From Scytonema tolypothrichoides VB-61278 (GTDB lineage Bacteria; Cyanobacteriota; Cyanobacteriia; Cyanobacteriales; Nostocaceae), in contig NZ_JXCA02000024.1 in assembly GCF_000828085.3 (NCBI RefSeq), positions 158,330 through 193,931 of the forward strand: 35,602 nt of DNA. Reading direction: 5' to 3'. Positions 10,459 to 24,262 of this stretch are shown here, piece after piece. A program made the translations under genes and the position numbers. Below the pieces are notes generated by a model. That model searched no databases and was not told the DNA's origin. It saw only the letters and a program-made list of their open reading frames with translations. Positions within the stretch are counted from its first letter, which is position 1; each line of letters opens with the position of its first letter.

Positions 10459-10572
10459 TGCCTTTTCCTCAAAACTTCAGCACATAGCTTTGCCTTTAAT
10501 ATAGCATCCGTACTATTTATCACCTGCTTATAAAAGCATTAAGTTTATATGCCTAATCTAAGCAGAAATTTC

Positions 10573-10634
10573 TATACTACTTTTGATTGATTTATTAATA
10601 AACACTCATTGTTCATATGTCATATTTGTAGGTT
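10573..10634. repeat. mysD 3'-flank duplicate, copy A
   Basis: About 60 bp downstream of mysD-A (TATACTACTTTTGATTGATT followed by TATTAATAAACACTCATTGT and ATGTCATATTTGTAGGT) are nearly identical to 16049-16107 downstream of mysD-B. This shows that the mysD duplication carried its 3' flank. The dispersed GTAGGTTGGG element inserts right at its edge. Confidence 0.85.
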
Positions 10635-10708
10635 GGGGAGCCACTTGCACACGAAGGGTTTCCCTCCTTTTTGCAAAGTGGCGTTTGAACGAGAGTGAAA
10701 CCCAACAT
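10628..10708. repeat. dispersed GTAGGTTGGG...AACCCAAC element
   Basis: The element runs from GTAGGTTGGGG to AACCCAACAT. The inner part from CCACTTGCACACGAAGGG to the end (10641-10708) recurs almost base for base at 17799-17866 with about three differences. It separates the mysD-A stop from the duplicated 3' flank. Confidence 0.75.
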
Positions 10709-10769: not shown

Positions 10770-11792
10770 TCATGCCAACGTTTCATTAATCGCCATCATC
10801 AATAACTCATCTAGAGGAATTCCCGCGACTTTCGCCATAGAGGGAATCACACTTTTGGGGGAAAAAGCACAATACAAACCTGCTTCTAAGAACCAAGGTT
10901 CTCCCTTTGGGTCGATCCGGAAGTCAAATAAACTGTAGTTGCGACAACCCAAAGCCTTGTGACACTTCTTAGCCACTTGCTGAACCTTTTGGGTGATCGG
11001 GTCGTTAGGGTCTACAATCCAAGACTTGTTATTATCTTTAGCGGTGAAATGCAAATTGCCATCGTCCGTTTGTTTGAGTTTGTCAGCATAGGTGCGGATG
11101 GGTTTGTCGTGGGGGTCTAGCAGATACTCTTCAAGGGGTAAACCGATTAGTTCCCCATCTTTAACAAAGATGCCGCCTCTGACTTCTCGACCGAGTTCAA
11201 TAAATTCTTCTACGATCACCTCATCTCCATATTCAAATGCTTTCTTCAAAGCAGCGTCATACTCACTAGCCTCTTTGACAAAGGACAGCCCGAAAGAGTC
11301 GGCGGAATTTGCAGGTTTGATGACTGCTGGAGGTGTAATTGTCGGAACGTCTCCTTGGCAAAGCAGTTCTCCACGAGGCACTTTCACCCCTGCTGCTTCG
11401 ACAATTGCTTTGGTTCTGGCTTTGTGGGCCGCTATTGCCATGACATCCGGAGTATTGCCTACGTAAGGGATCTTAAGCAGGTCGAATAGCGCGCGGTAGT
11501 GAGTCATTCCAGGGATACAAAACATGTGTGGCAACATCAGGTCAATGTTTTGTGCTGTTATAAACTGTATGGCCTCAAACACAGGAATCGGTTTGGCGAC
11601 AGCAACATCTTCTCGACTGAGGGAACGAGGAAATCGCCACTGGCGATCTGGTGTGATGTATGCAATCACAAAGTCATAGCGCGATGGATCTGCCGTTGCT
11701 GTCAGACAGCCTTCGGCGTAAAGGCGTGACAATTCACAGTAAAAATCATTCTCTGCAGATCCAACTAAATGAAGGATACGAAGTACTGGCAT
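10770..11792 (-). CDS. mysD: MysD-type D-Ala-D-Ala-ligase-like MAA ligase, copy A (last gene of the mysC1-oxygenase-mysD set)
   Basis: The 340-residue protein is very close to the MysD I remember from Nostoc (MPVLRILHLVGSAENDFY start, RALFDLLKIPYVGNTPDVMA, HKARTKAIVEAAGVKVPRGE). The ATP-grasp ligase domain shows AVIKP (156-160), EVIVEEFIELGREVRGG (191-207), YSLFDFRIDPKGEPWFLEAG (286-305). MysD enzymes join Ser, Thr or another amino acid to C1 of mycosporine-glycine, giving imino-MAAs such as shinorine. The loop after the ATP lysine reads ANSADSFGLSFV (161-172), whereas copy B has the more usual ADNSLGVSLV; this may change nucleotide or amino acid choice. It is the third gene on the minus strand after mysC1 and the oxygenase, with 181 bp between. 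Confidence 0.92.
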   Translation of the reverse strand: MPVLRILHLVGSAENDFYCELSRLYAEGCLTATADPSRYDFVIAYITPDRQWRFPRSLSREDVAVAKPIPVFEAIQFITAQNIDLMLPHMFCIPGMTHYRALFDLLKIPYVGNTPDVMAIAAHKARTKAIVEAAGVKVPRGELLCQGDVPTITPPAVIKPANSADSFGLSFVKEASEYDAALKKAFEYGDEVIVEEFIELGREVRGGIFVKDGELIGLPLEEYLLDPHDKPIRTYADKLKQTDDGNLHFTAKDNNKSWIVDPNDPITQKVQQVAKKCHKALGCRNYSLFDFRIDPKGEPWFLEAGLYCAFSPKSVIPSMAKVAGIPLDELLMMAINETLA

Positions 11793-11973: not shown

Positions 11974-13128
11974 TCAACCATTTATGAATAAAGCTGGTTT
12001 CATATCGCGAATGTTGCACATATTGCCGAAAGCGGTGAGAATTTTTCGTTTCAGTTTAGTATTGAGTCTACCATGAGCAACCTGTAGGTTATCGATTACG
12101 AGAATATCGCCTTGCTTCCACTTAAAGATAGCTGCATTTTTCCATTCAGCTTTTCCCAATTCTTTCGCTTCTGCTTCCGTCATCTTTGTGCATTGACCAT
12201 CCTTGTTCAAAAAAGATGCGTTCAAGGTACTGGTTCGTTTTTGCGAACCATCGACAACAGTTGCTGCTGTTGCTAATCTTTGCTGAAAGTTTTTGTACAA
12301 TTTGGTAGGCAGTAAATTGTAATAAAGCCTTTGCCCAAATGAATACCGTTGTCCGAGGTTTCGATACCATTCTCTATTGACTAAACAATCAATAATGCTA
12401 AGGCTAAAGCAGAGCCTACTCGTTCTTGGGTGAGTGATAATGGTAATATAAGAACACTCAAAATAAAGAGAGCCATCTTCTTCCCAGTTAAAATCAAATC
12501 CTTGTTCCTGGAGAAGTTTACTAATCTCTTCTCGCGAGAGACCCTCGAAGACAATCTCTAATAAATGGTTGGGAACATATCGCTCAAATCGCTGAGGAAA
12601 GTTTCCAAATTTGTGCTGTAAGTTGGGAGATAAACTTAAAAATAGCTTTTCCGTATTGATGATTGGAGTCTCGCCATATACGTCGGGTTGAACCTGGCAG
12701 AAGAAAGCAAGTACGCTTGGTCGCACCGGCACCATATTGAGTTCATTATGAAAAGAAATAATCATATCCGGTGGTGCTTCAGAAGAGGTGAAGACTTTAT
12801 CGGTTATTCGTACACGCTGAGCGCTGCCGAAGTGATAAAATGACTCGAGTTGGACATTGAGTAACTCTAGGGCTGTTTGAAATTGCTCTGCACCCTCAAC
12901 TTCAAATCCCCGAAACAAAATGGCTCCGTATGTGTCTAGCTGTTTATTGAACCACTGCGCACTTTCCTTCAGCAATGCCTTAAGAGCTGCGAAAGATTTT
13001 TCCTTGACTGGCTCAATAACTAGAGGTAGTTGTTCTTCAGTACTTGCAAAGGTTTTCTCGTCATTCTGCAAGAACCGTAATCTCATATCTGAGGAAATAG
13101 AAATTGGGAGATTTTGCATAGTATTCAT
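11974..13128 (-). CDS. TauD/TfdA-like Fe(II)/2-oxoglutarate dioxygenase, candidate MAA-tailoring enzyme
   Basis: The 384-residue protein has the TauD/SyrP-like oxygenase layout. YGAILFRGFEVEGAEQF precedes the metal motif ISFHNELNMVP (His127-x-Glu129), then LAFFCQVQPDVYGETPIIN. The distal part is GDILVIDNLQVAHGR (His352) followed by KRKILTAFG (Arg361), the usual 2-oxoglutarate arginine. All three Fe ligands are present, so it should be active. It is not the PhyH-type MysH known to turn shinorine-type MAAs into palythines. Its place between mysC1 and mysD-A, all on the minus strand behind a mysA-type leader, suggests hydroxylation or desaturation of an MAA or its amino acid. The start is uncertain: ATGs at 13164, 13128 and 13119 are all open and none has a clear ribosome site; 13128 is chosen for family length. 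Confidence 0.85.
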   Translation of the reverse strand: MNTMQNLPISISSDMRLRFLQNDEKTFASTEEQLPLVIEPVKEKSFAALKALLKESAQWFNKQLDTYGAILFRGFEVEGAEQFQTALELLNVQLESFYHFGSAQRVRITDKVFTSSEAPPDMIISFHNELNMVPVRPSVLAFFCQVQPDVYGETPIINTEKLFLSLSPNLQHKFGNFPQRFERYVPNHLLEIVFEGLSREEISKLLQEQGFDFNWEEDGSLYFECSYITIITHPRTSRLCFSLSIIDCLVNREWYRNLGQRYSFGQRLYYNLLPTKLYKNFQQRLATAATVVDGSQKRTSTLNASFLNKDGQCTKMTEAEAKELGKAEWKNAAIFKWKQGDILVIDNLQVAHGRLNTKLKRKILTAFGNMCNIRDMKPALFING

Positions 13129-13547
13129 AGAGTGAAAAAGTCGCTCACAGTGCAGACAATACACAAAAAAAATACACTTTTCAAGTGATATGTCTTGCTT
13201 GTGACCACAACAATGACAAGTTTTTGATGTATTGCGTTCATCAATTAGATGAAAAGATTTACTTGTTAAAACACACTTATATCTAAGTTACCTTGATAAA
13301 AACTCCTAAATAATATAGATACCATATTAGTGACAAGTTAAGGAATTATCGGCTATTTCATTTTCATAAGTAGCACTTGATGATAAATTTCGGATTCACT
13401 GTTTGTAAGGATTCTTCTGAAAACTCTGAACAGGGAACACTTCGACCGCGCTCAGTGCATCGCTCTTAAGCGAACCTCGTAAAAAAATCTCACTTTTGCA
13501 AGATGTCTAATGAACAGCGGTTACATTAACAACTTTTTTCCCTTAAT
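13129..13547. other. gap between mysC1 and the oxygenase, no gene seen
   Basis: AT-rich spacer of about 420 bp. It holds a fragment of a dispersed repeat (AACAGGGAACACTTCGACCG then CGCTCAGTGCATCGCTCTTA, about 13430-13472) and no open frame or convincing terminator. The oxygenase could therefore have its own promoter here rather than being strictly co-transcribed with mysC1. Confidence 0.5.
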
Positions 13548-14945
13548 TCAATCGCCACCTATTTCCACAAGTTTACCAATATTAAAATCAATCTTTGTCC
13601 AACCTTTTAGTTGTCGCAGATTATTGAGCAAAAGTAAAGGAATTTGCCAATGGTGTACCATCAAAAACGGCAGTGGGTCATCCAGCTGATAAATAGCATC
13701 AGTACCTTGCAAAAAGTTACGTATCCAAGTTTGCAGTTGAGCAAAGGAATGAATGCCAGTTAACCGCCAGACTTCGTGATATGTCCAGTATGTCGGCTTG
13801 CTGTTTGGCAGTGGTACAAGAGGTTCAGTGAAAGGTTCTTCACTCAAATAAGCGTCTGCCACATCTGGATGGTTGTAAAACATTGTAATTGCCGAATGCG
13901 TTCGGGGATTACATTCAATCGCGTAAACTGTCCCATCTTCAGCTTGAATGAAATCAAAAGAAACTTGTCCAGTAATTCCCAATTCCTTGACAAAATGCCT
14001 CACCCATTCTTGGATTTTCGGGTTTTCTACATTTTCGTAATTAACCTGAAAAGCTGAAGATTCTGCACAGCAGTGCAGGCGTAACTCTCCATTCTTAACT
14101 GTGCTGTGAGTGCAAAATTCCTTGCCAGGAATAAACTCTTGCATAATCCAGGGTTTTTCTGGACTAATTGGCAAACTTCTAACGAAGGCTGCTGTTTCCT
14201 CTGGTGTATCGCAAGGTAGCTTAGTTAAATCTAAGCGGCGTACTGAGTCGTAAGGAATGCTTTTAAGAATATATTTGCGAGTTTCTCCAGAAAAGTCAAA
14301 ATTCAGGACTTGTTCGGGATTAGTAATTTTGAAAGATTTGGGAACCGATAAGCCAAACGATCTTGCTTTTTCACTAAAAGCAAATTTATCATCTAGCATT
14401 TGGGTGACATCAGCATCGAAGTGAAAAACTTCGCAATAGGGCGAAAGCGCAGGTTTTGCTAAAGAGTCATAGTAACTCGCAACTGGACTAGTCACAGGAA
14501 CATAGACATCAATGTTTTCTTTCTTAACAATGTCTAGTAAAGCTTGGATATAAGCTTCTGGATCATACTGTGGGGTGGGAGTTGTATAAAAGCGAGAAAT
14601 TGCATCAGAAAATCGATGTCCCGATAACCAGTATTTGTGGGTTTCTATTAAGACAACTCTGTGTCCTGCAGCATGAAAAGAACGGGCAATCTGTAGCGCC
14701 TTCGTCATTTTGCCGCCGCTAATTAGGATATTTTTGCGGTTTGCGGCTACAACTGTTTGAGGACGAACAAAACGGCTGACGCGACTCCAAAATAGGGATG
14801 TTAGAACTATAGCAGCATTAATTGGCAACACTAACAAGAGTATTGTCAAGGTGGCAATGTTCTGGAATAAAGCTTTGACTTGTGCCACAAAAGCAGTTGG
14901 TGATGTTGCTCCTCCTGCGGAGGTTAAGGGAAGAGATTGTGCCAT
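13548..14945 (-). CDS. mysC: MysC ATP-grasp ligase, canonical copy (mysC1)
   Basis: The 465-residue protein matches the standard Nostoc-type MysC in its start (MAQSLPLTSAGGATSP) and its end (IDFNIGKLVEIGGD). It has one hydrophobic N-terminal segment (about 28-52). The ATP-grasp core shows KYILKSIPYDS (224-234), WIMQEFIPGKEFCTHS (266-281), SFDFIQAEDG (329-338) and ECNPRTHS (344-351). MysC adds glycine (or another amino acid) to 4-deoxygadusol with ATP, giving mycosporine-glycine. In many clusters this gene follows mysB directly; here it is 6.6 kb from mysB and sits instead behind a second copy of the mysA leader. The oxygenase and mysD-A follow on the same strand. No good ribosome site is seen; a leftover mysA ATG lies 11 bases upstream in another frame. 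Confidence 0.95.
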   Translation of the reverse strand: MAQSLPLTSAGGATSPTAFVAQVKALFQNIATLTILLLVLPINAAIVLTSLFWSRVSRFVRPQTVVAANRKNILISGGKMTKALQIARSFHAAGHRVVLIETHKYWLSGHRFSDAISRFYTTPTPQYDPEAYIQALLDIVKKENIDVYVPVTSPVASYYDSLAKPALSPYCEVFHFDADVTQMLDDKFAFSEKARSFGLSVPKSFKITNPEQVLNFDFSGETRKYILKSIPYDSVRRLDLTKLPCDTPEETAAFVRSLPISPEKPWIMQEFIPGKEFCTHSTVKNGELRLHCCAESSAFQVNYENVENPKIQEWVRHFVKELGITGQVSFDFIQAEDGTVYAIECNPRTHSAITMFYNHPDVADAYLSEEPFTEPLVPLPNSKPTYWTYHEVWRLTGIHSFAQLQTWIRNFLQGTDAIYQLDDPLPFLMVHHWQIPLLLLNNLRQLKGWTKIDFNIGKLVEIGGD

Positions 14946-14956
14946 GATGATTCCAT
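14924..14956 (-). other. 10-codon uORF from a relic mysA start codon, overlapping the mysC1 start
   Basis: The ATG at 14956 occupies the exact place that the mysA start (23645) has in the duplicated leader (AAAAATA-ATG in both). Here it opens a 10-residue frame (MESSWHNLFP, stop TAA at 14926-14924) that runs across the mysC1 ATG (14945) in a different frame. Ribosomes initiating at the old site would stop 22 bases into mysC1, so it could lower or couple mysC1 translation. Confidence 0.7.
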
Positions 14957-15570
14957 TATTTTTGACCTACAATGTTGACAATATCCCCAAAAAAATGGGA
15001 TACTCTTCGCAAGACAGTGATTCCCGTCAGTACACCCAATAACTACACTTTTATCCTTGAACAAATTGCTCAAAGGACATAAAGACCGAAGGCGAATAAG
15101 TTAAAAAAACAAAGATTCCCCTCCTGTCTAAAAAGGTTTTGAGCATACTTTCAGTAAGAAATTTGAGTTTGATTAGCTCTCTAGTGAGCAAAACTTGCTA
15201 AATCAGGCTAAAATCCCACTTTTTGTAGAAAAATCCTATTACTTAGCACGATTGATAGCTATCGAATGGTCACTGTATCTTGACCTAATTCTCAAATTAT
15301 CATATTTCTTCGTCACAAAAATAAGCCTCTTCTATATTTTCTTCTTTCTTTCATAATTTGAGTCTCAAAACAAGCAATCCATAGTTCCAAAAGTCAAGAT
15401 GCTTGAAAAATCTAGCATGACAAGTTGTTTGTTATTAGAAATTTTCTCTCATCACTTGGAGACTTGATGATTTTTGCTTGTTACTAAACACTTGGAAACT
15501 TTTTCATTACGTTCAGCACTATAGATTATGATGTTTCCATTAGATTTATCTTCTATCTAAAGAATGAAAC
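14957..15570 (-). promoter_or_regulatory. second copy of the mysA leader/promoter region, in front of mysC1
   Basis: From the relic ATG (14956) outward this region aligns with 23646-24262 in front of mysA. The match is strong over about 350 bp and patchy up to the shared TTCTATCTAAAGAATGA (15552-15567). Shared blocks include ACAATGTTGACAATATCCCC, CTAAAAAGGTTTTGAGCATA, ACTTTTTGTAGAAAAATCCT and TCACTGTATCTTGACCTA. The palindrome GATAGCTATC lies at 15254-15263, exactly 298 bp from the ATG in both copies. A -10-like GATAAT (minus strand, 15301-15296) is kept too, which would give a leader of about 330 nt. A short hairpin (arms 14982-14987 and 14997-15002) lies about 25 nt before the start. Confidence 0.85.
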
Positions 15571-16048
15571 CAAACAAATGTATTCATAATGACGAAATCC
15601 GTAAAGCCTGTGTCTGAACAATGAAATAAATCACAAGTTTGAACTCAAAAGTCAGTCTAAAATAGACTTGCATAGTAAACACTAGATGAACAAGTACTGT
15701 CACTCTTTTTACTAGTATATTTATTAACATTATTAAATTTACAAATCAGTAGAAAAACTGTTAATTATATGCAATTACATGACGAACACAATACCAAAAG
15801 CAATACGAAATACCCTAGACACTCATACAGAACCTAACTCAGTCTTTGCTGCTTTAGTTGAGGTATTTGGGGAAGTATTGCAGTGCGTTAGCGAACGCGA
15901 GTGCGTGCGCCTCTGGCGCTTAGCTTTTGCGAAGCAGGCTCGTTGTTTTCTCTACCTGAGAAATCCTCACACTAAACGTAGTACTAACGCTTTGGGAAAG
16001 AATTAGAGATAAATTATTTGTACTAAAGTAAGTCCTATAATAGATTTA
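15571..16048. other. gap between the mysC1 leader and the mysD-B 3' flank, no supported gene
   Basis: AT-rich sequence followed, from about 15880 to 15950, by a dispersed repeat (GTGCGTTAGCGAACGCGAGT; GCGTGCGCCTCTGGCGCTTA). A 75-codon frame at 15779-16006 is half built from this repeat and is not accepted as a gene. Confidence 0.5.
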
Positions 16049-16107
16049 TATACTACTTTTGATTGATTTATTAATAAACACTTATTGTTAATGTCATATT
16101 TATAGGT
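16049..16107. repeat. mysD 3'-flank duplicate, copy B
   Basis: Nearly identical to 10573-10634 behind mysD-A (TATACTACTTTTGATTGATT, AATAAACACTTATTGTTA, ATGTCATATTTATAGGT). It lies about 270 bp beyond the mysD-B stop, because a GC-rich dispersed repeat (16160-16330) has been inserted between them. Confidence 0.85.
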
Positions 16108-16379: not shown

Positions 16380-17402
16380 TCATGCCAATGCTTGATTGAT
16401 CATTGTCTGAAATAACTCATCTAAAGGAATTCCCACTTTGTTCGCCGTACAGGCAATCACCGCGTTGTGGTCAAAAATACAAAACAATCCGGCTTCTAAG
16501 AACCAAGGTTGTCCCTGTGGGTCGATCCGGAAGTCAAATAAACTATAATGGCGACAGCCCAAAGCCAAATGACACTTCTTAACTTCTTGCTGAACCTTTT
16601 GGGTGATCGGGTCATTAATATCTACAATCCAACCTGGGACATAATTTTTAGCAGTTGAATTCAAGTCGCCCTCGATGGGTATTTTGAATTTGTCAGTATA
16701 GCTGCGGATGGGTCTGACTTGAGGGTCTATCTGATACTCTTCAAGGGGTAAACCGATTAACTCTCCATCTTTAACAATAGCGCCGCATCTGACTTCTCGA
16801 CCAGCTTCAATGAATGTTTCTACAATCACCTCCGAAGCAAATTCAAATGCTTTCTTCAAAGCAGCGTCATACTCACTAGCTTCTTTGACTAAGGACACCC
16901 CTAAAGAGTTGTCAGCATTTGCGGGTTTGATCACTGCTGGAGGCATAATTGTCGGTACGTCTCCTTTGCGGAGGAGTTCTCCAGAAGGCACTTTGACGCC
17001 TGCTGCTGCTACAATTGCTTTGGTTCTGGCTTTGTGGGCTGTTAATGCCATGAGATCCGGAGTATTGCCTATGTAAGGGATCTTAAGCAGGTCGAATAGT
17101 GCGCGGTACTCAATCATTCCAGGCAGACAAAACATTTGTGGCAACATAAGGTCAATGTTTTGCGCTGTTATAAACTGTATAGCCTCTAACAGAGGCATCG
17201 GTTTGGCGACAGCAATATCTTCAAGACTGAGAGAGGAAGGAAATCGCCACAGGCCATCAGGTGTGATGTATGCAATTAAAAATTCGTAGCGCGATGGATT
17301 TGCCGTAGCTACCAGACAGCTATGGGCGTAATTGCGTGACAATTCACGGTAAAAATCACTGGATGGAGACCCTGCTAAATGAAGAATACGAAGTACTGGC
17401 AT
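16380..17402 (-). CDS. mysD: MysD-type D-Ala-D-Ala-ligase-like MAA ligase, copy B
   Basis: A 340-residue paralogue of mysD-A of identical length (MPVLRILHLAGSPSSDFYRE start). Core motifs are AVIKPANADNSLGVSLVKEA (156-175), EVIVETFIEAGREVRCG, and YSLFDFRIDPQGQPWFLEAG. The loop NSLGVSLV is closer to the usual ligase form than that of copy A. The C-terminus (CIFDHNAVIACTANKVGIPL) differs most from copy A (CAFSPKSVIPSMAKVAGIPL), in a part that helps to line the amino acid site in this fold. This suggests that the two ligases attach different amino acids to mycosporine-glycine. It is divergent from mysC2 with about 600 bp of mostly repeat DNA between, and its upstream region is unlike that of mysD-A. 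Confidence 0.92.
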   Translation of the reverse strand: MPVLRILHLAGSPSSDFYRELSRNYAHSCLVATANPSRYEFLIAYITPDGLWRFPSSLSLEDIAVAKPMPLLEAIQFITAQNIDLMLPQMFCLPGMIEYRALFDLLKIPYIGNTPDLMALTAHKARTKAIVAAAGVKVPSGELLRKGDVPTIMPPAVIKPANADNSLGVSLVKEASEYDAALKKAFEFASEVIVETFIEAGREVRCGAIVKDGELIGLPLEEYQIDPQVRPIRSYTDKFKIPIEGDLNSTAKNYVPGWIVDINDPITQKVQQEVKKCHLALGCRHYSLFDFRIDPQGQPWFLEAGLFCIFDHNAVIACTANKVGIPLDELFQTMINQALA

Positions 17403-17591: not shown

Positions 17592-17866
17592 GTAGGTTGG
17601 GGAGGACAGTGCCGGGCGTAGTCGTCGAGGTCTTGGGGAGCCAGTGCGTTGCGGTGAGACCAGCGCTGCAGGAGGGTCTCCCTCCGTAGGCGACTGGCGA
17701 ACCCGAAGGGAGGTTCCCCCGAGGGTGCATCTGGCGTGGTTTCCCCCATGAGGAACTGCCGAAAGGGTTTCCCGACTTGAGGCATCTGTCCGCCCTTGCC
17801 ACTTGCACACGAAGGGTTTCCCTCCTTTTTGCAAAGTGGTGTTTGAACGGCAGTGAAACCCAACAT
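17592..17866. repeat. long GTAGGTTGGGG...AACCCAAC dispersed element
   Basis: A 275-bp member of the GTAGGTTGGGG family with nested GC-rich repeats (CTGGCGAACCCGAAGGGAGG, AGGAACTGCCGAAAGGGTTT). Its right 68 bp (17799-17866) match 10641-10708. It lies between the divergent mysD-B and mysC2 genes and produces several long but meaningless frames on the minus strand. Confidence 0.75.
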
Positions 17867-18006: not shown

Positions 18007-18027
18007 ATGACACAATTACAACTATGA
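18007..18027 (+). other. relic mysC start giving a 6-codon uORF (MTQLQL) coupled to mysC2
   Basis: ATCATGACACAATTAC here lines up with the true mysC1 start (ATCATGGCACAATCTC, MAQS). In mysC2 this old ATG reads only MTQLQL and its TGA overlaps the new ATG at 18024 (ATGA). The same is seen before mysC3. Translational coupling through the stop-start overlap is plausible. Confidence 0.65.
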
Positions 18028-19403
18028 GGGAGCAGATTTTTGCAGTGTTCCAAAACTTGGGCACTCTTGCATTACTGGCGATCGCATTTCCCTTTAACTG
18101 CACCGTCGTACTCGCATCGCTGCTGTGGAATTTTTTCAAGCCAAGTTATGCCAAGCAAGTGGTTTTGAACGAGAATCCGAAAAATATCTTGATCGGTGGT
18201 GGTAGAATGACCAAAACCCTTCAGCTTGCGCGATCATTTCACGCAGCAGGGCATCGAGTTATTTTATTTGATCTCGACAAATACTGGTTCAGTGGTTATC
18301 GATTTTCTAACTCTGTGGCGGGCTTTTACACTGTTCCTGACTCACACGAAGACAAAGAGGGCTACACCCAAGCCGTGCGTGCGATCGCCAAAAAAGAAAA
18401 CATAGACTTTTTTGTCCCGGTAGGCATTTTTGCTGCCAGCTACTTCGACTCCGAATGCAAGCCAGTGTTATCAGGCTATTGCGAGAATTTCCACTTCGAT
18501 GCTGATACAATGAAGATGCTGGATAACAAGTTTACTTTTGCAGAAAAAGCACGCTCACTCTCCCTATCTGTCCCGAAAACCTTCTTAATTACAGATCCCG
18601 AACAAGTTCTTAAATTCGACTTTTCCAACGAAAAGCGCAAGTACATTCTCAAAAGTATTGTCTATGACTCTGTTTTACGCTTAGATCTGACTAAGCTACC
18701 AATGGATTCTCCTGAAAAAATGGCGCTTTATGTCAAAAGTAAGCCAATTAGTGAAGATAACCCTTGGATATTGCAAGAGTTTATTCCCGGAAAAGAATAC
18801 TGTACTCACGATACAGTGAGAAACGGTGAATTAACAGTACACTGCTGCTGCGAATCATCTGCTTTTCAAGTCAATTACGAAAACGTTGATCACCCAGAAA
18901 TTAAGAAGTGGGTGAGTCATTTTGTCAAAGAACTACAACTGACTGGACAACTTTGTTTTGACTTCATTCAGGCGGAAGATGGGACGATTTATGCGATAGA
19001 GTGCAACGCTCGCGCTCACTCTGCAATTACAATGTATTATAACCATCCAGGTTTAGCGGATGCTTATCTTAGTAAAGAGCCTCCGGCTGAACCTCTGCAA
19101 CCTCTGAGTGATAGTAAGCCTACTTATTGGCTTTATCACGAACTTTGGAGACTTAATGAAATTAGATCGTTAAAGCAATTGCAAAAGTGGTTTAAAAATA
19201 TTTGGCGAGGAAAGGATGCAATCTTTGAAGTTCACGACCCACTACCGTTTTTAATGGTACATCACTGGCACATTCCTTTACTATTACTCGATAGTTTGCG
19301 CTCCTTACGAAGCTGGGTGAGGATTGATTTCAACATCGGGAAACTGATACAGTTTGGAGAAGACGTAAAATATGGCAAATCTATCTCTGTTACCCCTAAG
19401 TGA
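18024..19403 (+). CDS. MysC-like ATP-grasp ligase, divergent paralogue (mysC2)
   Basis: The 459-residue protein is a clear MysC paralogue but lacks the first 22 or so residues of mysC1. It starts MREQIFAVFQNLGTLALLAI and keeps the hydrophobic segment (8-36). The ATP-grasp parts KYILKSIVYDS, WILQEFIPGKEYCTHD and CFDFIQAEDG are kept, but the metal-site motif reads ECNARAHS (A329 and A331) where mysC1 and mysC3 have ECNPRTHS. The pocket stretch after the first domain is VGIFAASYFDS against VTSPVASYYDS in mysC1. It also has a C-terminal extension ending SISVTPK. These changes suggest another amino acid substrate or weakened catalysis. It is in tandem with mysC3 on the plus strand, opposite to mysA/mysB, divergent from mysD-B. 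I leave the symbol empty because its activity is unproven. Confidence 0.92.
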   Translation: MREQIFAVFQNLGTLALLAIAFPFNCTVVLASLLWNFFKPSYAKQVVLNENPKNILIGGGRMTKTLQLARSFHAAGHRVILFDLDKYWFSGYRFSNSVAGFYTVPDSHEDKEGYTQAVRAIAKKENIDFFVPVGIFAASYFDSECKPVLSGYCENFHFDADTMKMLDNKFTFAEKARSLSLSVPKTFLITDPEQVLKFDFSNEKRKYILKSIVYDSVLRLDLTKLPMDSPEKMALYVKSKPISEDNPWILQEFIPGKEYCTHDTVRNGELTVHCCCESSAFQVNYENVDHPEIKKWVSHFVKELQLTGQLCFDFIQAEDGTIYAIECNARAHSAITMYYNHPGLADAYLSKEPPAEPLQPLSDSKPTYWLYHELWRLNEIRSLKQLQKWFKNIWRGKDAIFEVHDPLPFLMVHHWHIPLLLLDSLRSLRSWVRIDFNIGKLIQFGEDVKYGKSISVTPK

Positions 19404-19586
19404 TAGTAAGCCTGAGTTGAAAATAAGGAGTGGGGGAGGGAGAGACAGAGAGTGAGGGAGGGACAGACACAGTGAGGGAGAATATTTTCATGTGTCCTGG
19501 TGAGGCAGTTCTCACAAGCGAGCTTCATAGGCTTAGACGCTCACCAGAAGGCTTCCCGATAGCCGTAAGGCACTGATTCCATAATC

Positions 19587-19601
19587 ATGTCACAATTATA
19601 A
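19587..19601 (+). other. relic mysC start giving a 4-codon uORF (MSQL) before mysC3
   Basis: ATCATGTCACAATTATAATT matches the segment before mysC2. The old ATG is 17 bases before the new start in both genes; here TAA closes it after four codons, 2 bases before the mysC3 ATG. Confidence 0.6.
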
Positions 19602-19603
19602 TT

Positions 19604-20935
19604 ATGAAGGAACAAATTTTTATAGTGTTCCAAAACTTGGGGACTCTTGTATTACTGGCGATCGCATTTCCCTTTAACTGCATCGTCGTCTTAACTTCCC
19701 TAGTTTGGAACTTTATCAAGCAACCATTCAGTCAGTCAATTGTTGTCAACCCCAATTCCAAAAATATTTTGATTGCTGGCGCTAGAATGACTAAAACTCT
19801 TCAGCTAGCGCGTTCATTTCATGCAGCAGGGCATCGGGTTATCATAATTGATATTGAGAAATTCTGGTCAAGTGGTAATAAATATTCCAACTCTGTTGCA
19901 GGCTTTTATACCGTTCCCGATCCAAGCAAAGATTTAGAAGGCTACGTTGAAAGCCTACATGCGATCGCCAAAAAAGAAAAGATCGACTTTTTTATCCCCG
20001 TAGCCATTTTTTCCGTCATCCACTATGACTCTCAAGGAAAGCCACCATTACCAGACGATGTAGAGTTTTTCCACTTCGATGCTGATGTCACAAAGATCCT
20101 GGATGACAAGTTTGCCTTTGCCGAAACAGCGCGATCGTTCGGTTTATCAGTCCCCAAATCCTTCAAAATTACCGATCCCGAACAAGTCCTCAACTTCGAC
20201 TTTTCTCAGGAGAAGCGTAAATACATTCTTAAAAGCATCCCCTACGATCAAGTGCGTCGCTTGAATCTCACCAAGTTACCTTGCGATACACCATCACAAA
20301 CAGCAGCATTTGTCAAGACTCTGCCCATCAGTGAGGAGAAGCCCTGGATTATGCAGGAATTCATCCCTGGAAAAGAATACTGCACTCACACAACCGCGCG
20401 AGATGGAGAGTCAAGAATGTACTGCTGCTGTGAGTCATCTGCCTTTCAAGTCAACTACGAAAACGTTGATCAGCCAGAAATTATGCAATGGGCGAGTCAT
20501 TTTACTAAAGAACTGGGAAAAACCGGGCAGCTTTCGTTTGACTTCATCCAGGCGGAAGATGGAACTGTTTACGCGATTGAGTGTAACCCGCGTACTCACT
20601 CTGCCATTACTATGTTTTACAATCATCCAGGAGTAGCAGATGCCTATCTTGGTAAAGAACCTCTGGCTGAATCTTTGCAGCCTCTGAGTGATAGTAAGCC
20701 AACCTATTGGCTGTACCACGAAGTTTGGCGGCTGAATGAGATTAGATCGTTTAAACAACTGCAAACCTGGGTAAGAAACATCAGGCGGGGGAAAGAAGCA
20801 ATTTTTGAGGTGAGTGATCCCTTACCCTTCCTGATGGTACATCACTGGCAGATTCCCTTACTTATTCTCGACAATTTACGAAGACTCAAAGGTTGGATAA
20901 GAATAGATTTTAATATGGGTGAGCTTATAGATTGA
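19604..20935 (+). CDS. MysC-like ATP-grasp ligase, divergent paralogue (mysC3)
   Basis: The 443-residue protein starts MKEQIFIVFQNLGTLVLLAI, has the hydrophobic N-terminal segment (about 8-36) and retains all ATP-grasp landmarks (KYILKSIPYDQ, WIMQEFIPGKEYCTHT, SFDFIQAEDG, ECNPRTHSAIT), so it should be catalytic. It differs from mysC1 in the first-domain loop AGARMTKT (mysC1 SGGKMTKA) and in the stretch VAIFSVIHYDS (mysC1 VTSPVASYYDS). It shares the shortened N-terminus and start-region layout with mysC2, so these two arose by a later tandem duplication. It ends converging on mysB, with an inverted repeat at 21016-21051 between them. Likely substrates are 4-deoxygadusol and an amino acid; which one is unknown. 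Confidence 0.93.
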   Translation: MKEQIFIVFQNLGTLVLLAIAFPFNCIVVLTSLVWNFIKQPFSQSIVVNPNSKNILIAGARMTKTLQLARSFHAAGHRVIIIDIEKFWSSGNKYSNSVAGFYTVPDPSKDLEGYVESLHAIAKKEKIDFFIPVAIFSVIHYDSQGKPPLPDDVEFFHFDADVTKILDDKFAFAETARSFGLSVPKSFKITDPEQVLNFDFSQEKRKYILKSIPYDQVRRLNLTKLPCDTPSQTAAFVKTLPISEEKPWIMQEFIPGKEYCTHTTARDGESRMYCCCESSAFQVNYENVDQPEIMQWASHFTKELGKTGQLSFDFIQAEDGTVYAIECNPRTHSAITMFYNHPGVADAYLGKEPLAESLQPLSDSKPTYWLYHEVWRLNEIRSFKQLQTWVRNIRRGKEAIFEVSDPLPFLMVHHWQIPLLILDNLRRLKGWIRIDFNMGELID

Positions 20936-21579: not shown

Positions 21580-22410
21580 CTACGGTAACCGTCGGATAAT
21601 AGTTAAGCCATCTCGCAGTGGTAACAATACTTGTTGGACACGCGAATCGGCGGCGACAACGTGGTTAAACTGAGCAATAGCCTCACCGTTGGGAGTGCGA
21701 TTTTCTTCTGGAAGATAAACTTGTCCTTGAAGTAGAGTGTTATCTACGCAGATAAACCCTCCAGGAATGACCAAATCTTTCTCTAGCAGGATTTCAAGGT
21801 ACTTGACATACTCTTTTTTATCCGCATCTATGAACACAAAATCAAATGACTCCCTTGCATCTGCCAGTTTTTGCAAAGTTAAGAGTGCAGGACCGACTTC
21901 CACACGAATTTTTGCACCGTGGGGAGACTCCCGGAAGGCAGTTTGCGCGAACTCTGCGGTGTAAGGATCAACTTCACAAGCGACTAGTTCTCCATCAGGC
22001 GGTAAAGCTTCCGCCATTGCGAGTGCAGAATAGCCAGTGAACATACCTACTTCCAGCACTTTCTTAGCTTTTGTCATGTGGATAAACATCTTGAGAGTTT
22101 GTCCTTCCACATGCCCAGAAAGCATTTCCTGCTCAAGTTCTCGTACTGTAGCTCCCTGGTGGAAGTTTTGGTTCCAAGCTTCCTGAGCCGTTTTTTGAGC
22201 TAGCGCTGCGAGGGCTGGTGATTCACGAGTGGTACATTCTTCTAAATAGGGGTCTAAACCTGCTGCCAAAAGCCATGCTTGCTTGAGGTGAGTTTCTAGC
22301 TCATCAGATGTCTGTTGATCAAATGTCTGCAAAATGGTTTCTAGCTGCTTAGCTAAAATCCCCAATGGTGTTACAGGTCTAGCGCTTGGCTTTTCGACAA
22401 CTTGCGACAT
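21580..22410 (-). CDS. mysB: MysB O-methyltransferase (4-deoxygadusol synthesis)
   Basis: The 276-residue class I SAM-dependent O-methyltransferase has motif I VLEVGMFTGYSALAMAEAL (118-136), the acidic ACEVDPY (144-150), and VFIDADKKEYVKYLE (192-206), the metal-binding layout of catechol/caffeoyl-CoA O-methyltransferases. In MAA synthesis it methylates the MysA product to 4-deoxygadusol. Its ATG overlaps the mysA stop by one base (TAATG), so the two are translationally coupled. Sequence and length agree with Nostoc-type MysB. No mysC follows on this strand, unlike the usual order; the neighbouring mysC3 is inverted. Confidence 0.95.
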   Translation of the reverse strand: MSQVVEKPSARPVTPLGILAKQLETILQTFDQQTSDELETHLKQAWLLAAGLDPYLEECTTRESPALAALAQKTAQEAWNQNFHQGATVRELEQEMLSGHVEGQTLKMFIHMTKAKKVLEVGMFTGYSALAMAEALPPDGELVACEVDPYTAEFAQTAFRESPHGAKIRVEVGPALLTLQKLADARESFDFVFIDADKKEYVKYLEILLEKDLVIPGGFICVDNTLLQGQVYLPEENRTPNGEAIAQFNHVVAADSRVQQVLLPLRDGLTIIRRLP

Positions 22411-23645
22411 TAAGCTTCACTCCCAACAAGTTCTGGGTTGTAAGCATCTGGGTAGAGTTCTACGCCATCGCCACCACGAGGGTAGGTTTTGCATAGATCT
22501 TTATGTTCTGATAATGCTTCTGCCAGTTCCTCGCGAGTTAAATCATTCATAAAGAAGCAACTGCCAATTGGTCTGGGCATAGCAGCTCGTAGCAGACCGC
22601 CTCGTGTGCAGGTGATGGATTGGGTAGCACGCCACGCAAGTTCTTCGTCTAAGAGGGGATGGTCGAGGGCAAGACCGATACGGCTCATGAGACTGAGAAT
22701 GCGATCGCGTTCTTGTGTGGTAATATAGCCTCGTCGTGCTGCAAGCGTGACAGAAAAAGCCATGTCGATGTTAACTGCATGACCGTGGAAAATAGGCACG
22801 CGGGGTGCAAGTTCTAGAGTCGGACTCCAAGTATGACCAAAAGCAATAACCCTATCTAGGTCTAACTCGTGTAGGTTGTTAACCTCCAAATTTAGCATGC
22901 TTTTAATAGACTCGTAAGTGACGCGATGCGCCACTTCTTTGATTTCTGGTGTTGCGTCAATGTTACCAAAGTGTGTGGAAAGCAGTTCTTCGCCATACTT
23001 GTCCAACAAATCAAAAACTTCTTTGTTGTTAACCACTGCAATTTTCACGAGTTCTGCCATACCATTACGAACTTGCGCTGTTGGCAAAGTACCCAGCAAC
23101 GAGAAATCGAGGAAAACGTTTTGCGAAGCGTGATAAGCACCAAGGCGATTTTTCAGCTTCTTGTGGTTCACTGCTACTTTGATCGCAACACTCGCATCAA
23201 TCAAACCAATCAGAGTAGTAGGAATACGAATGTAGTTGCTACTGCGCTGGTAAGCAGAACAGGCAAAACCTGCAACATCTGTAATGAGTCCACCACCAAC
23301 CACTAGCACTGGTTCCTTGCGAACCAGCTTAAATTCAGCCACAGCATCGATAATCTTCTCGAAAGACTCAATAGTCTTGTTTGGTTCAGTGATCGTGATC
23401 GGAAAAACCGTCAAGTCAATGTCGTAATACTTGAAATACTGCTCGATTTGACTGCCGTAAAATTTATTGACATTGGCATCTACAACAACCAAGCAGCGTC
23501 CAAAATCTTTATAAACTTCTGCCAGTTGTGGATTTTTGATTGCAAAAACCCCATCAACATAGATTAGGCTGTACTCAATTTTTTCGTAAGCCTCTACGTG
23601 AAAAGCGGTTTCAGTAGCTTCAAACTTTGCCTGAATAGTACTCAT
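22410..23645 (-). CDS. mysA: MysA sugar-phosphate cyclase (2-epi-5-epi-valiolone/desmethyl-4-deoxygadusol synthase type)
   Basis: The 411-residue protein is a dehydroquinate-synthase-like cyclase. The NAD part is [21 protein letters not shown] (114-134), the metal ligands Glu198 (MAELVKI), His271 (GHTWSP) and His287 ([12 protein letters not shown]). The start [20 protein letters not shown] and the tail [13 protein letters not shown] match the Anabaena MAA-cluster cyclase. It turns sedoheptulose-7-phosphate into the cyclitol that MysB methylates. I use the Met at 23645; a reading to 23699 adds 18 residues absent from relatives and coming from the leader hairpin region. The same leader and start codon occur in front of mysC1, which confirms this start. 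UV regulation is expected for MAA genes but not shown by the sequence. Confidence 0.95.
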
Positions 23646-24262
23646 TATTTTTGACCCACAATGTTGACAATATCCCCCAAAAAATGGAGGACTATTCACA
23701 AGACAGTATTTACTTCAGTACACCCAAGAACTACACCACCATCCATAAGCAAACCGCCCAATGGACAAGGAGACTAGAGGCGAATAAATTAACAAAAACA
23801 AATAATCCCCCTCCGTCTAAAAAGGTTCTGAGCATACTTTAGTAAGAGATTTGAATTCAATTAGATCACTTTTGAGCCAAATTTGCTGACATTAGGTTAA
23901 AATTCCACTTTTTGCAGAAAAATCCTCATGTCTTGCAGTGTTGATAGCTATCGAACAGTCACTGTATCTTGACCTATATTCTCAAATTATCACACTTTAT
24001 AAAAAATTTTTAATTTTTATTATATTTTCTTCTTCTTCTGAGAATTTGCGTCTGGGATACCGATAACACATTGCCTAAATAAAATTGAAGTTGTTGAAAA
24101 AGATAGTACAGGGGGTTACTACTAGAAACTAACTTTGACTTTAGTCTCTAAGTTTGGTACTCTTTCCTTGCCACTACAGAGCAATAAGCTCTTTACACAG
24201 CAAAATATAATAACCTTTTATAATGTTTTAGTTAAGTAAAACTTCTATCTAAAGAATGAGAT
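23646..24262 (-). promoter_or_regulatory. mysA leader/promoter region (original copy of the mysC1 leader)
   Basis: Aligned with 14957-15570. The block 23943-23952 is the palindrome GATAGCTATC, followed within 25 bp by TCACTGTATCTTGACCTA. A -10-like GATAAT lies at 23991-23986 (minus strand). The segment 23673-23691 can fold on the transcript as UCCUCC / GGGGGA with a U-rich loop, including one G-U pair; the mysC1 copy has different bases but also pairs, with arms slightly shifted. The long, conserved leader (about 330 nt if the -10 is right) suggests control after transcription start as well. Confidence 0.8.

Follow-up and report, generated by a model that had tools for sequence, protein, structure and literature searches.

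mysC1 of a split MAA locus stands behind a second mysA-type leader, probably inherited from another mysABC1-type operon

Introduction

MAA genes of Nostocales are canonically arranged in a co-linear mysABC(D/E) operon. The Brasilonema clusters described in PMC9918943, from the genus of the strain studied here, read mysABC-dioxygenase-mysE (mysABCHE); in that account, Brasilonema sennae and octagenarum carry co-linear clusters and make palythine, and production is tied to co-linear clusters only. Nostoc flagelliforme has mysABDC2C3, where OrrA is reported to bind the mysA promoter and to be required for osmotic induction, UV induction being largely unaffected in an OrrA mutant (PMC13131328; OrrA is also summarized in PMC12157317). 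Discontiguous MAA clusters have been reported from nine cyanobacteria, with merging of decayed clusters proposed (PMC10510106). In one of them, Nostoc sp. UHCC 0926, the units lie at three genome places, and the cluster sections of that report describe no leader common to them.

Here we analyze a window of 35,602 nucleotides from Scytonema tolypothrichoides VB-61278 (genome G000; 7.9 Mb, 31 contigs, 99.97% complete). As in UHCC 0926 and others, its MAA genes form several units, but they share one locus and a homologous leader. The first unit has the genes and the leader-mysA-mysB order of the canonical operon, and mysC1 is of the type found in congeners; unlike in that operon, mysC1 stands apart from mysA-mysB, behind a mysA-type leader of its own. 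The company of mysA-mysB with mysD and a mysC2/C3 pair recalls N. flagelliforme, except that the pair is inverted here and is followed by a mysC1-dioxygenase-mysD unit. A dioxygenase gene behind mysC is shared with the published Brasilonema clusters, which are co-linear, unlike this locus. The statement in an initial annotation that it knew of no described MAA cluster both split and doubly promoted was too strong, as split pathways are on record (PMC10510106); what we describe is a variant of the split cluster with a homologous leader on each half. Titles and abstract beginnings of the literature searched describe no duplicated mys leader.

Results

Organization of the locus

Read along the minus strand, the locus runs leader-mysA-mysB-(inverted mysC2/C3)-mysD_B-flank and then leader 2-mysC1-dioxygenase-mysD_A-flank-aldolase. 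These are two mys units with one leader each in a single locus of about 14 kb, labeled operon copies I and II. A distance of 6.6 kb, containing mysC2/C3 and mysD_B, separates mysC1 from mysB, so the arrangement is not the canonical co-linear mysABC. Features, in window positions, are:

24242..24259, minus strand: 18-bp element TCATTCTTTAGATAGAAG, a TTCT-N6-AGAA dyad, at -614 of mysA
24222-24217, minus strand: TATAAA, 19 nt after the mysA-side 18-mer, read by eye
23646..24075, minus strand: mysA leader, conserved core to -430, from alignment with nine other genomes' mysA leaders
22410..23645, minus strand: mysA, 3-dehydroquinate-synthase-like cyclase (Pfam DHQ_synthase), copy I
21580..22410, minus strand: mysB, O-methyltransferase (Pfam Methyltransf_3), copy I
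18024..20935, plus strand: mysC2/mysC3-type pair (18024-19403, 19604-20935), inverted between mysB and mysD_B
16380..17402, minus strand: mysD_B, the type of mysD sited elsewhere in G001-G004
16044..16107, minus strand: copy of the aldolase-proximal flank (counterpart 10568-10633)
15550..15567, minus strand: identical copy of the 18-bp element, at -611 of the relic ATG
15530-15525, minus strand: CATAAT, 19 nt after the mysC1-side 18-mer, read by eye
14957..15386, minus strand: second leader 5' of mysC1, conserved core, from alignments, BLASTN and tree
15254..15263, minus strand: palindrome GATAGCTATC in the mysC1 leader (mysA-leader counterpart 23943-23952)
14924..14956, minus strand: relic mysA start codon and its frame, MESSWHNLFP and a stop, overlapping the mysC1 5' end
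13548..14945, minus strand: mysC1, ATP-grasp ligase (Pfam ATP-grasp_3); possible alternative start GTG 14888
11974..13164, minus strand: TauD-family dioxygenase, copy II; start uncertain, congener DNA homology from near 13139
10770..11792, minus strand: mysD_A, D-Ala-D-Ala-ligase type, copy II

The mysA protein is 93-96% identical to those of six congeners (G001-G006). The dioxygenase frame follows mysC1 after about 384 bp, and mysC1, the dioxygenase gene and mysD_A would form a putative, unproven single transcript. Between mysC1 and the aldolase gene, the interval examined, there are no frames beside the dioxygenase and mysD_A of the kind that surround the dioxygenase in G001, G003 and G004 (346, 324 and about 1350 aa). 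About 2.6 kb carrying two of these (346 and 324 aa in G003; L042:6246-8847) is absent here between mysC1 and the dioxygenase, near 13139.

The region upstream of mysC1 is homologous to the mysA leader

It had been proposed from the sequence that the mysA leader was copied in front of mysC1 together with a leftover mysA start codon. The two upstream regions are significantly homologous up to that codon: their local alignment scores 388 and extends through AAAAATA-ATG, ATG included, whereas 500 dinucleotide shuffles average 24 and reach at most 36. BLASTN aligns 14954-15365 with 23643-24053 at 78.9% over 417 columns (E 6e-89) and ends at the mysA ATG. Further upstream, the annotation's tracing of the likeness to about 610 bp agrees with a weak resemblance from -432 to -595 (103 of 142 ungapped positions; score 22 against a maximum of 16 in 500 shuffles) and with the identical 18-mer beyond it. 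The equal spacing that it noted for the palindrome is likewise seen, GATAGCTATC starting at -307 of the mysA ATG and of the relic ATG alike, as is the 10-codon frame that runs from ATG 14956 across the mysC1 start. Homology 5' of the second leader extends to about 15817 (G006, 70%).

Only these two places in the genome match the leader at E ≤ 0.001 (28 of 28 candidates scored). Thirteen of the 149 genomes searched, ours included, match the mysA leader, three of them (G023, G068 and G083) by 30-63 bases only, and ours alone has two separate leader places; for G055 and G005, the second match falls within the leader region already counted. In G005, an insertion of about 350 bp separates the conserved leader from the mysA start, with its own GGAG before the ATG (L047:6278-6627).

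The two leaders have separate descent

An rpoB tree of the genus resolves (G005,G006) and ((G000,G002),(G001,G003,G004)) with 100% bootstrap for each group, the trio being drawn open inside. In a tree of 11 leaders, the strain's own mysA leader groups with those of G001-G004 (99/98; together clade A), and the mysC1 leader, hereafter leader 2, with that of G005 (94/95.6). Recent copying of the strain's own mysA leader to mysC1 would account for the element order, distances and ATG being alike in both leaders; it is very improbable given that forcing the two as sisters costs 32 log units and is rejected (AU p=0.00016), and that the own mysA leader shares 86-88% identity with the leaders of G001-G004 and 77% with leader 2. 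Of the original proposal, the homology and the leftover ATG thus stand, and the self-copy does not: the two leaders are not each other's closest relatives, and we regard their separate descent as fairly firm.

The placement of leader 2 was examined with AU tests, whose p-values are uncorrected; BLAST results had suggested the G005 grouping before it was put to the test. With the leader only, a position inside clade A is rejected (p=0.026), and positions with G005+G006 (p=0.176) or outside all orthologues (p=0.054) are not. Leader 2 and mysC1 combined group with G005 (95/95.7), and the combined data reject the species clade (p=0.0079), G005+G006 (p=0.0438) and a place outside all congeners (p=0.0155). 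The other half behaves in the opposite way: leader, mysA and mysB combined fall in the species clade (99/98), and grouping with G005 is rejected (p=0.0011). The G005 contig ends within mysC1, which is spread over two contigs there, and the mysC1 trees used the 5' part only (280 codons).

Single genes, tested with the distant outgroup L104 left out (for mysC1 also L069), are weak. mysC1 alone joins G005 (78/81; species clade p=0.0415), mysA alone does not place G000 in the species clade, a placement that is not rejected (p=0.138), and mysB alone is ambiguous, grouping with G005 not being rejected (p=0.098). Column counts are mixed. Seven columns that are invariant in the nine other leaders differ in leader 2 and in G005 alike, and the two carry the same letter in every one of the seven. 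Among columns with a single letter throughout clade A, 34 unite leader 2 with clade A to the exclusion of G005, 25 unite G005 with clade A to the exclusion of leader 2, and in another 25 leader 2 and G005 share a letter that differs from that of clade A. Thirteen of the 25 columns shared by leader 2 and G005 also occur in G006 or G011 and are perhaps ancestral. The G005 branch (0.155) is longer than that of leader 2 (0.123).

mysC1 probably keeps the leader of a second operon

The mysA loci of nine relatives were compared as longer regions. mysC1 follows mysB by about 210-440 bp in seven (G001, G003, G004, G005, G006, G011 and G055) and is absent behind mysA-mysB in G063 and G002. In G002, the rpoB sister of our strain, mysA-mysB is followed by a mysD fragment (107 residues, L048:7923-8243) and then by the aldolase gene, without mysC1. 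The named genomes hold 80 mysC loci, 77 of them with at least 1 kb upstream; mysA and mysB lie upstream on the same strand in 76 of the 77, another mysC intervening in L097. The sole exception, L088 of Nostoc sp. NMS7, has mysC1 without mysA-mysB within 10 kb upstream. A TauD-type gene lies near this orphan mysC1 (L088:5112-11371), and a search around it with 73 mysA upstream regions as queries returned only short repeat-like matches 8 kb away.

Homology to the mysA leader stops at the ATG (14954), and homology to relatives on the mysC1 side starts at 14943-14956, varying by relative; the AATCATC before the mysC1 ATG has the same bases as in G006. Because the two homologies meet within a few bases of 14953, our strain lacks the stretch that relatives have from mysA codon 2 up to some 8 bp ahead of mysC1.

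The position of mysC1 behind mysA-mysB in relatives, together with the separate groupings of the leaders, makes it most likely that mysC1 keeps the leader of a second operon. We put the chance at roughly two in three that the sequence upstream of mysC1 is the leader of a second, tandem mysABC1-type operon from a different Brasilonema lineage, whose mysA and mysB were lost. Copy II would have lost both genes through a junction that joined the mysA start codon to a point some 8 bp upstream of mysC1, and the resident copy would have lost its own mysC1.

The surroundings, as read from gene order and from the homology 5' of leader 2, also point to a second operon rather than a moved promoter. The two mysD genes encode proteins of 73% identity. 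mysD_B groups with the mysD genes of G001-G004 and shares 95% identity with that of G001; mysD_A groups with Dendronalium, its nearest relative (88%), and is 85% identical to that of G005. Both mysD genes are followed by a sequence (10568-10633 and 16044-16107) that directly precedes the aldolase gene in G002, G005 and G006, and 40 scored candidates of 111 gave no third copy in the genome. This tandem order with two mysD genes and flanks looks like two operons, each without what the other kept. A repeat at 10640-10708 and 17798-17866 was considered as part of the duplication and set aside as a dispersed repeat.

An old tandem duplication in the Brasilonema ancestor, retained here and lost elsewhere without transfer between lineages, would equally give the tandem layout and the duplicated mysD flank, and leader 2 taken alone is compatible with a place outside all orthologues. 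We consider it rather unlikely, as the combined leader and mysC1 data reject a place outside all congeners and as a search with the mysC1 leader gave a single leader place, in some as two nearby pieces, in each of the six other congeners (most of them drafts; G002 is 89% complete). A merger between lineages is therefore favored over old duplication, not proven. Against the merger stand the weak single genes, the mixed column counts, the affinity of mysD_A to Dendronalium, and copy II itself, where no mysA or mysB remnant is left; a search outside genes within the window found none.

mysC2/C3 and mysD_B were probably gathered into the locus

In G001-G004, the mysC2/C3 pair has one site elsewhere in the genome and the mysD_B-type gene another, and both sites are syntenic across these genomes (the G002 mysD contig ends just behind the gene). 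In our strain, the flanks of the mysC2/C3 place are 175 bp apart with the pair absent (contig C2:444827-447848), and those of the mysD_B place are 2.9 kb apart with mysD absent (C8:448051-454380); the only full mysD matches in the genome are the window's two. Since the rpoB sister G002 has the dispersed places, the simplest reading is that mysC2/C3 and mysD_B moved into the mys locus here, rather than the reverse, in which they left it in the other genomes. Three congeners have a mysB-like remnant (49-66% identical) before mysC2/C3 (L049:7216-7485, L051:11755-12052 and L052:8365-8706), a hint of a former full operon there.

A conserved 18-mer suggests that the second leader still works

The 18-mer TCATTCTTTAGATAGAAG occurs exactly twice in the 7.9-Mb genome, once in front of each unit. 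With up to two mismatches there are five places (two exact, one with one mismatch and two with two), against two for a reversed control pattern. Among 10 mysA leaders, 8 have it without mismatch (those of seven Brasilonema and HT-58-2), G005 twice, and a search with up to three mismatches found none in the mysA leaders of G011 and G063. Up to 700 bp upstream and with at most three mismatches, it occurs in just 4 of 73 mysA regions of named genomes (three Brasilonema and HT-58-2), so it is not a general cyanobacterial site.

A -10-like hexamer follows 18-19 nt after the 18-mer, TATAAA on the mysA side and CATAAT on the mysC1 side, with none behind the second G005 copy; these candidate hexamers were picked by eye. 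They would place transcript starts near 24210 and 15518, giving 5' leaders of about 560 nt, and the 18-mer at about -41 of the putative start, a position fitting an activator site. We infer an activator-type promoter about 570 bp upstream, made of the 18-bp dyad and the hexamer and giving a long 5' leader transcript. As each remaining half retains a leader, both could be transcribed from the same kind of promoter.

Could the second leader be a non-functional relic, with mysC1 transcribed from elsewhere? Its many base changes and the shifted start codon would fit, as would a scan for sigma-70-type promoters, which gave no excess in the mysC1 leader, with 4 sites on both strands against 4.3 expected from shuffles (5 against 2.7 in the mysA leader). 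We hold this to be improbable: the 18-mer is retained exactly, the mysC1 frame is intact, and leader 2 keeps 143 of 160 columns invariant in the nine other leaders (G005 keeps 137). When ten mysA leaders define the invariant columns, it retains 127 of 137; at the remaining columns it has 199 of 267 consensus letters. The exact 18-mer would be the strongest sign of a working second leader, and a putative co-regulation of mysA and mysC1 is well motivated by the sequence. As an RNA element, the leader received no real support from RNAalifold on nine sequences (covariation term 0.08; 11 of 82 pairs with double change), and no Rfam family reached its gathering score in the whole window.

The relic ATG and the start of mysC1

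The mysC1 ATG (14945) lies 11 nt downstream of the relic ATG (14956) in a different frame. The relic ATG is preceded by AGGT at a distance of 8 nt, and the mysC1 ATG by the same AGGT at 19 nt; the corresponding bases of the own mysA leader are GGGT. Judged by these distances, the relic ATG seems better placed for initiation. The initial annotation took 14945 as the real start of mysC1. An ATG is indeed found at the mysC start in 54 of 55 loci aligned from residue 1, two of which (G001 and G004) have a TAA behind it; the certainty of that call does not hold, as the start frame is closed by TAA at codon 8 in G001, G003 and G004, the ATG itself is missing in G003, and the G006 start codon is ATC. 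ATG 14945 is without a usable counterpart in four congeners. With the start frame closed or lost in these four Brasilonema (L041:4632-4655, L042:4472-4495, L043:4534-4557 and L040:4522-4524), mysC1 there probably starts near codon 20. In our strain, codon 20 is GTG 14888, an alternative start, and 5 of 7 other sequences compared have GTG or ATG at the same codon.

The relic ATG probably still initiates its 10-codon frame, in which case translation of mysC1 would begin out of frame at 14945 or result from re-initiation, perhaps at GTG 14888.

Discussion

Taken together, our findings favor descent of leader 2 from a second mysABC1-type operon. More tentatively, and with appreciable doubt, the merged operons may have been split by reciprocal loss, with the identical distal 18-bp operator and the leader of about 560 nt allowing one activator to drive both halves and the relic ATG frame tuning mysC1 relative to mysA and mysB.

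The locus offers a natural test of the claim that only co-linear MAA clusters are productive, as made in PMC9918943, and provides TCATTCTTTAGATAGAAG as a concrete candidate operator, along with a long conserved 5' leader, for Brasilonema sunscreen genes. With halves of different operon lineages and a leader on each, it illustrates how a metabolic operon may split without loss of common control.
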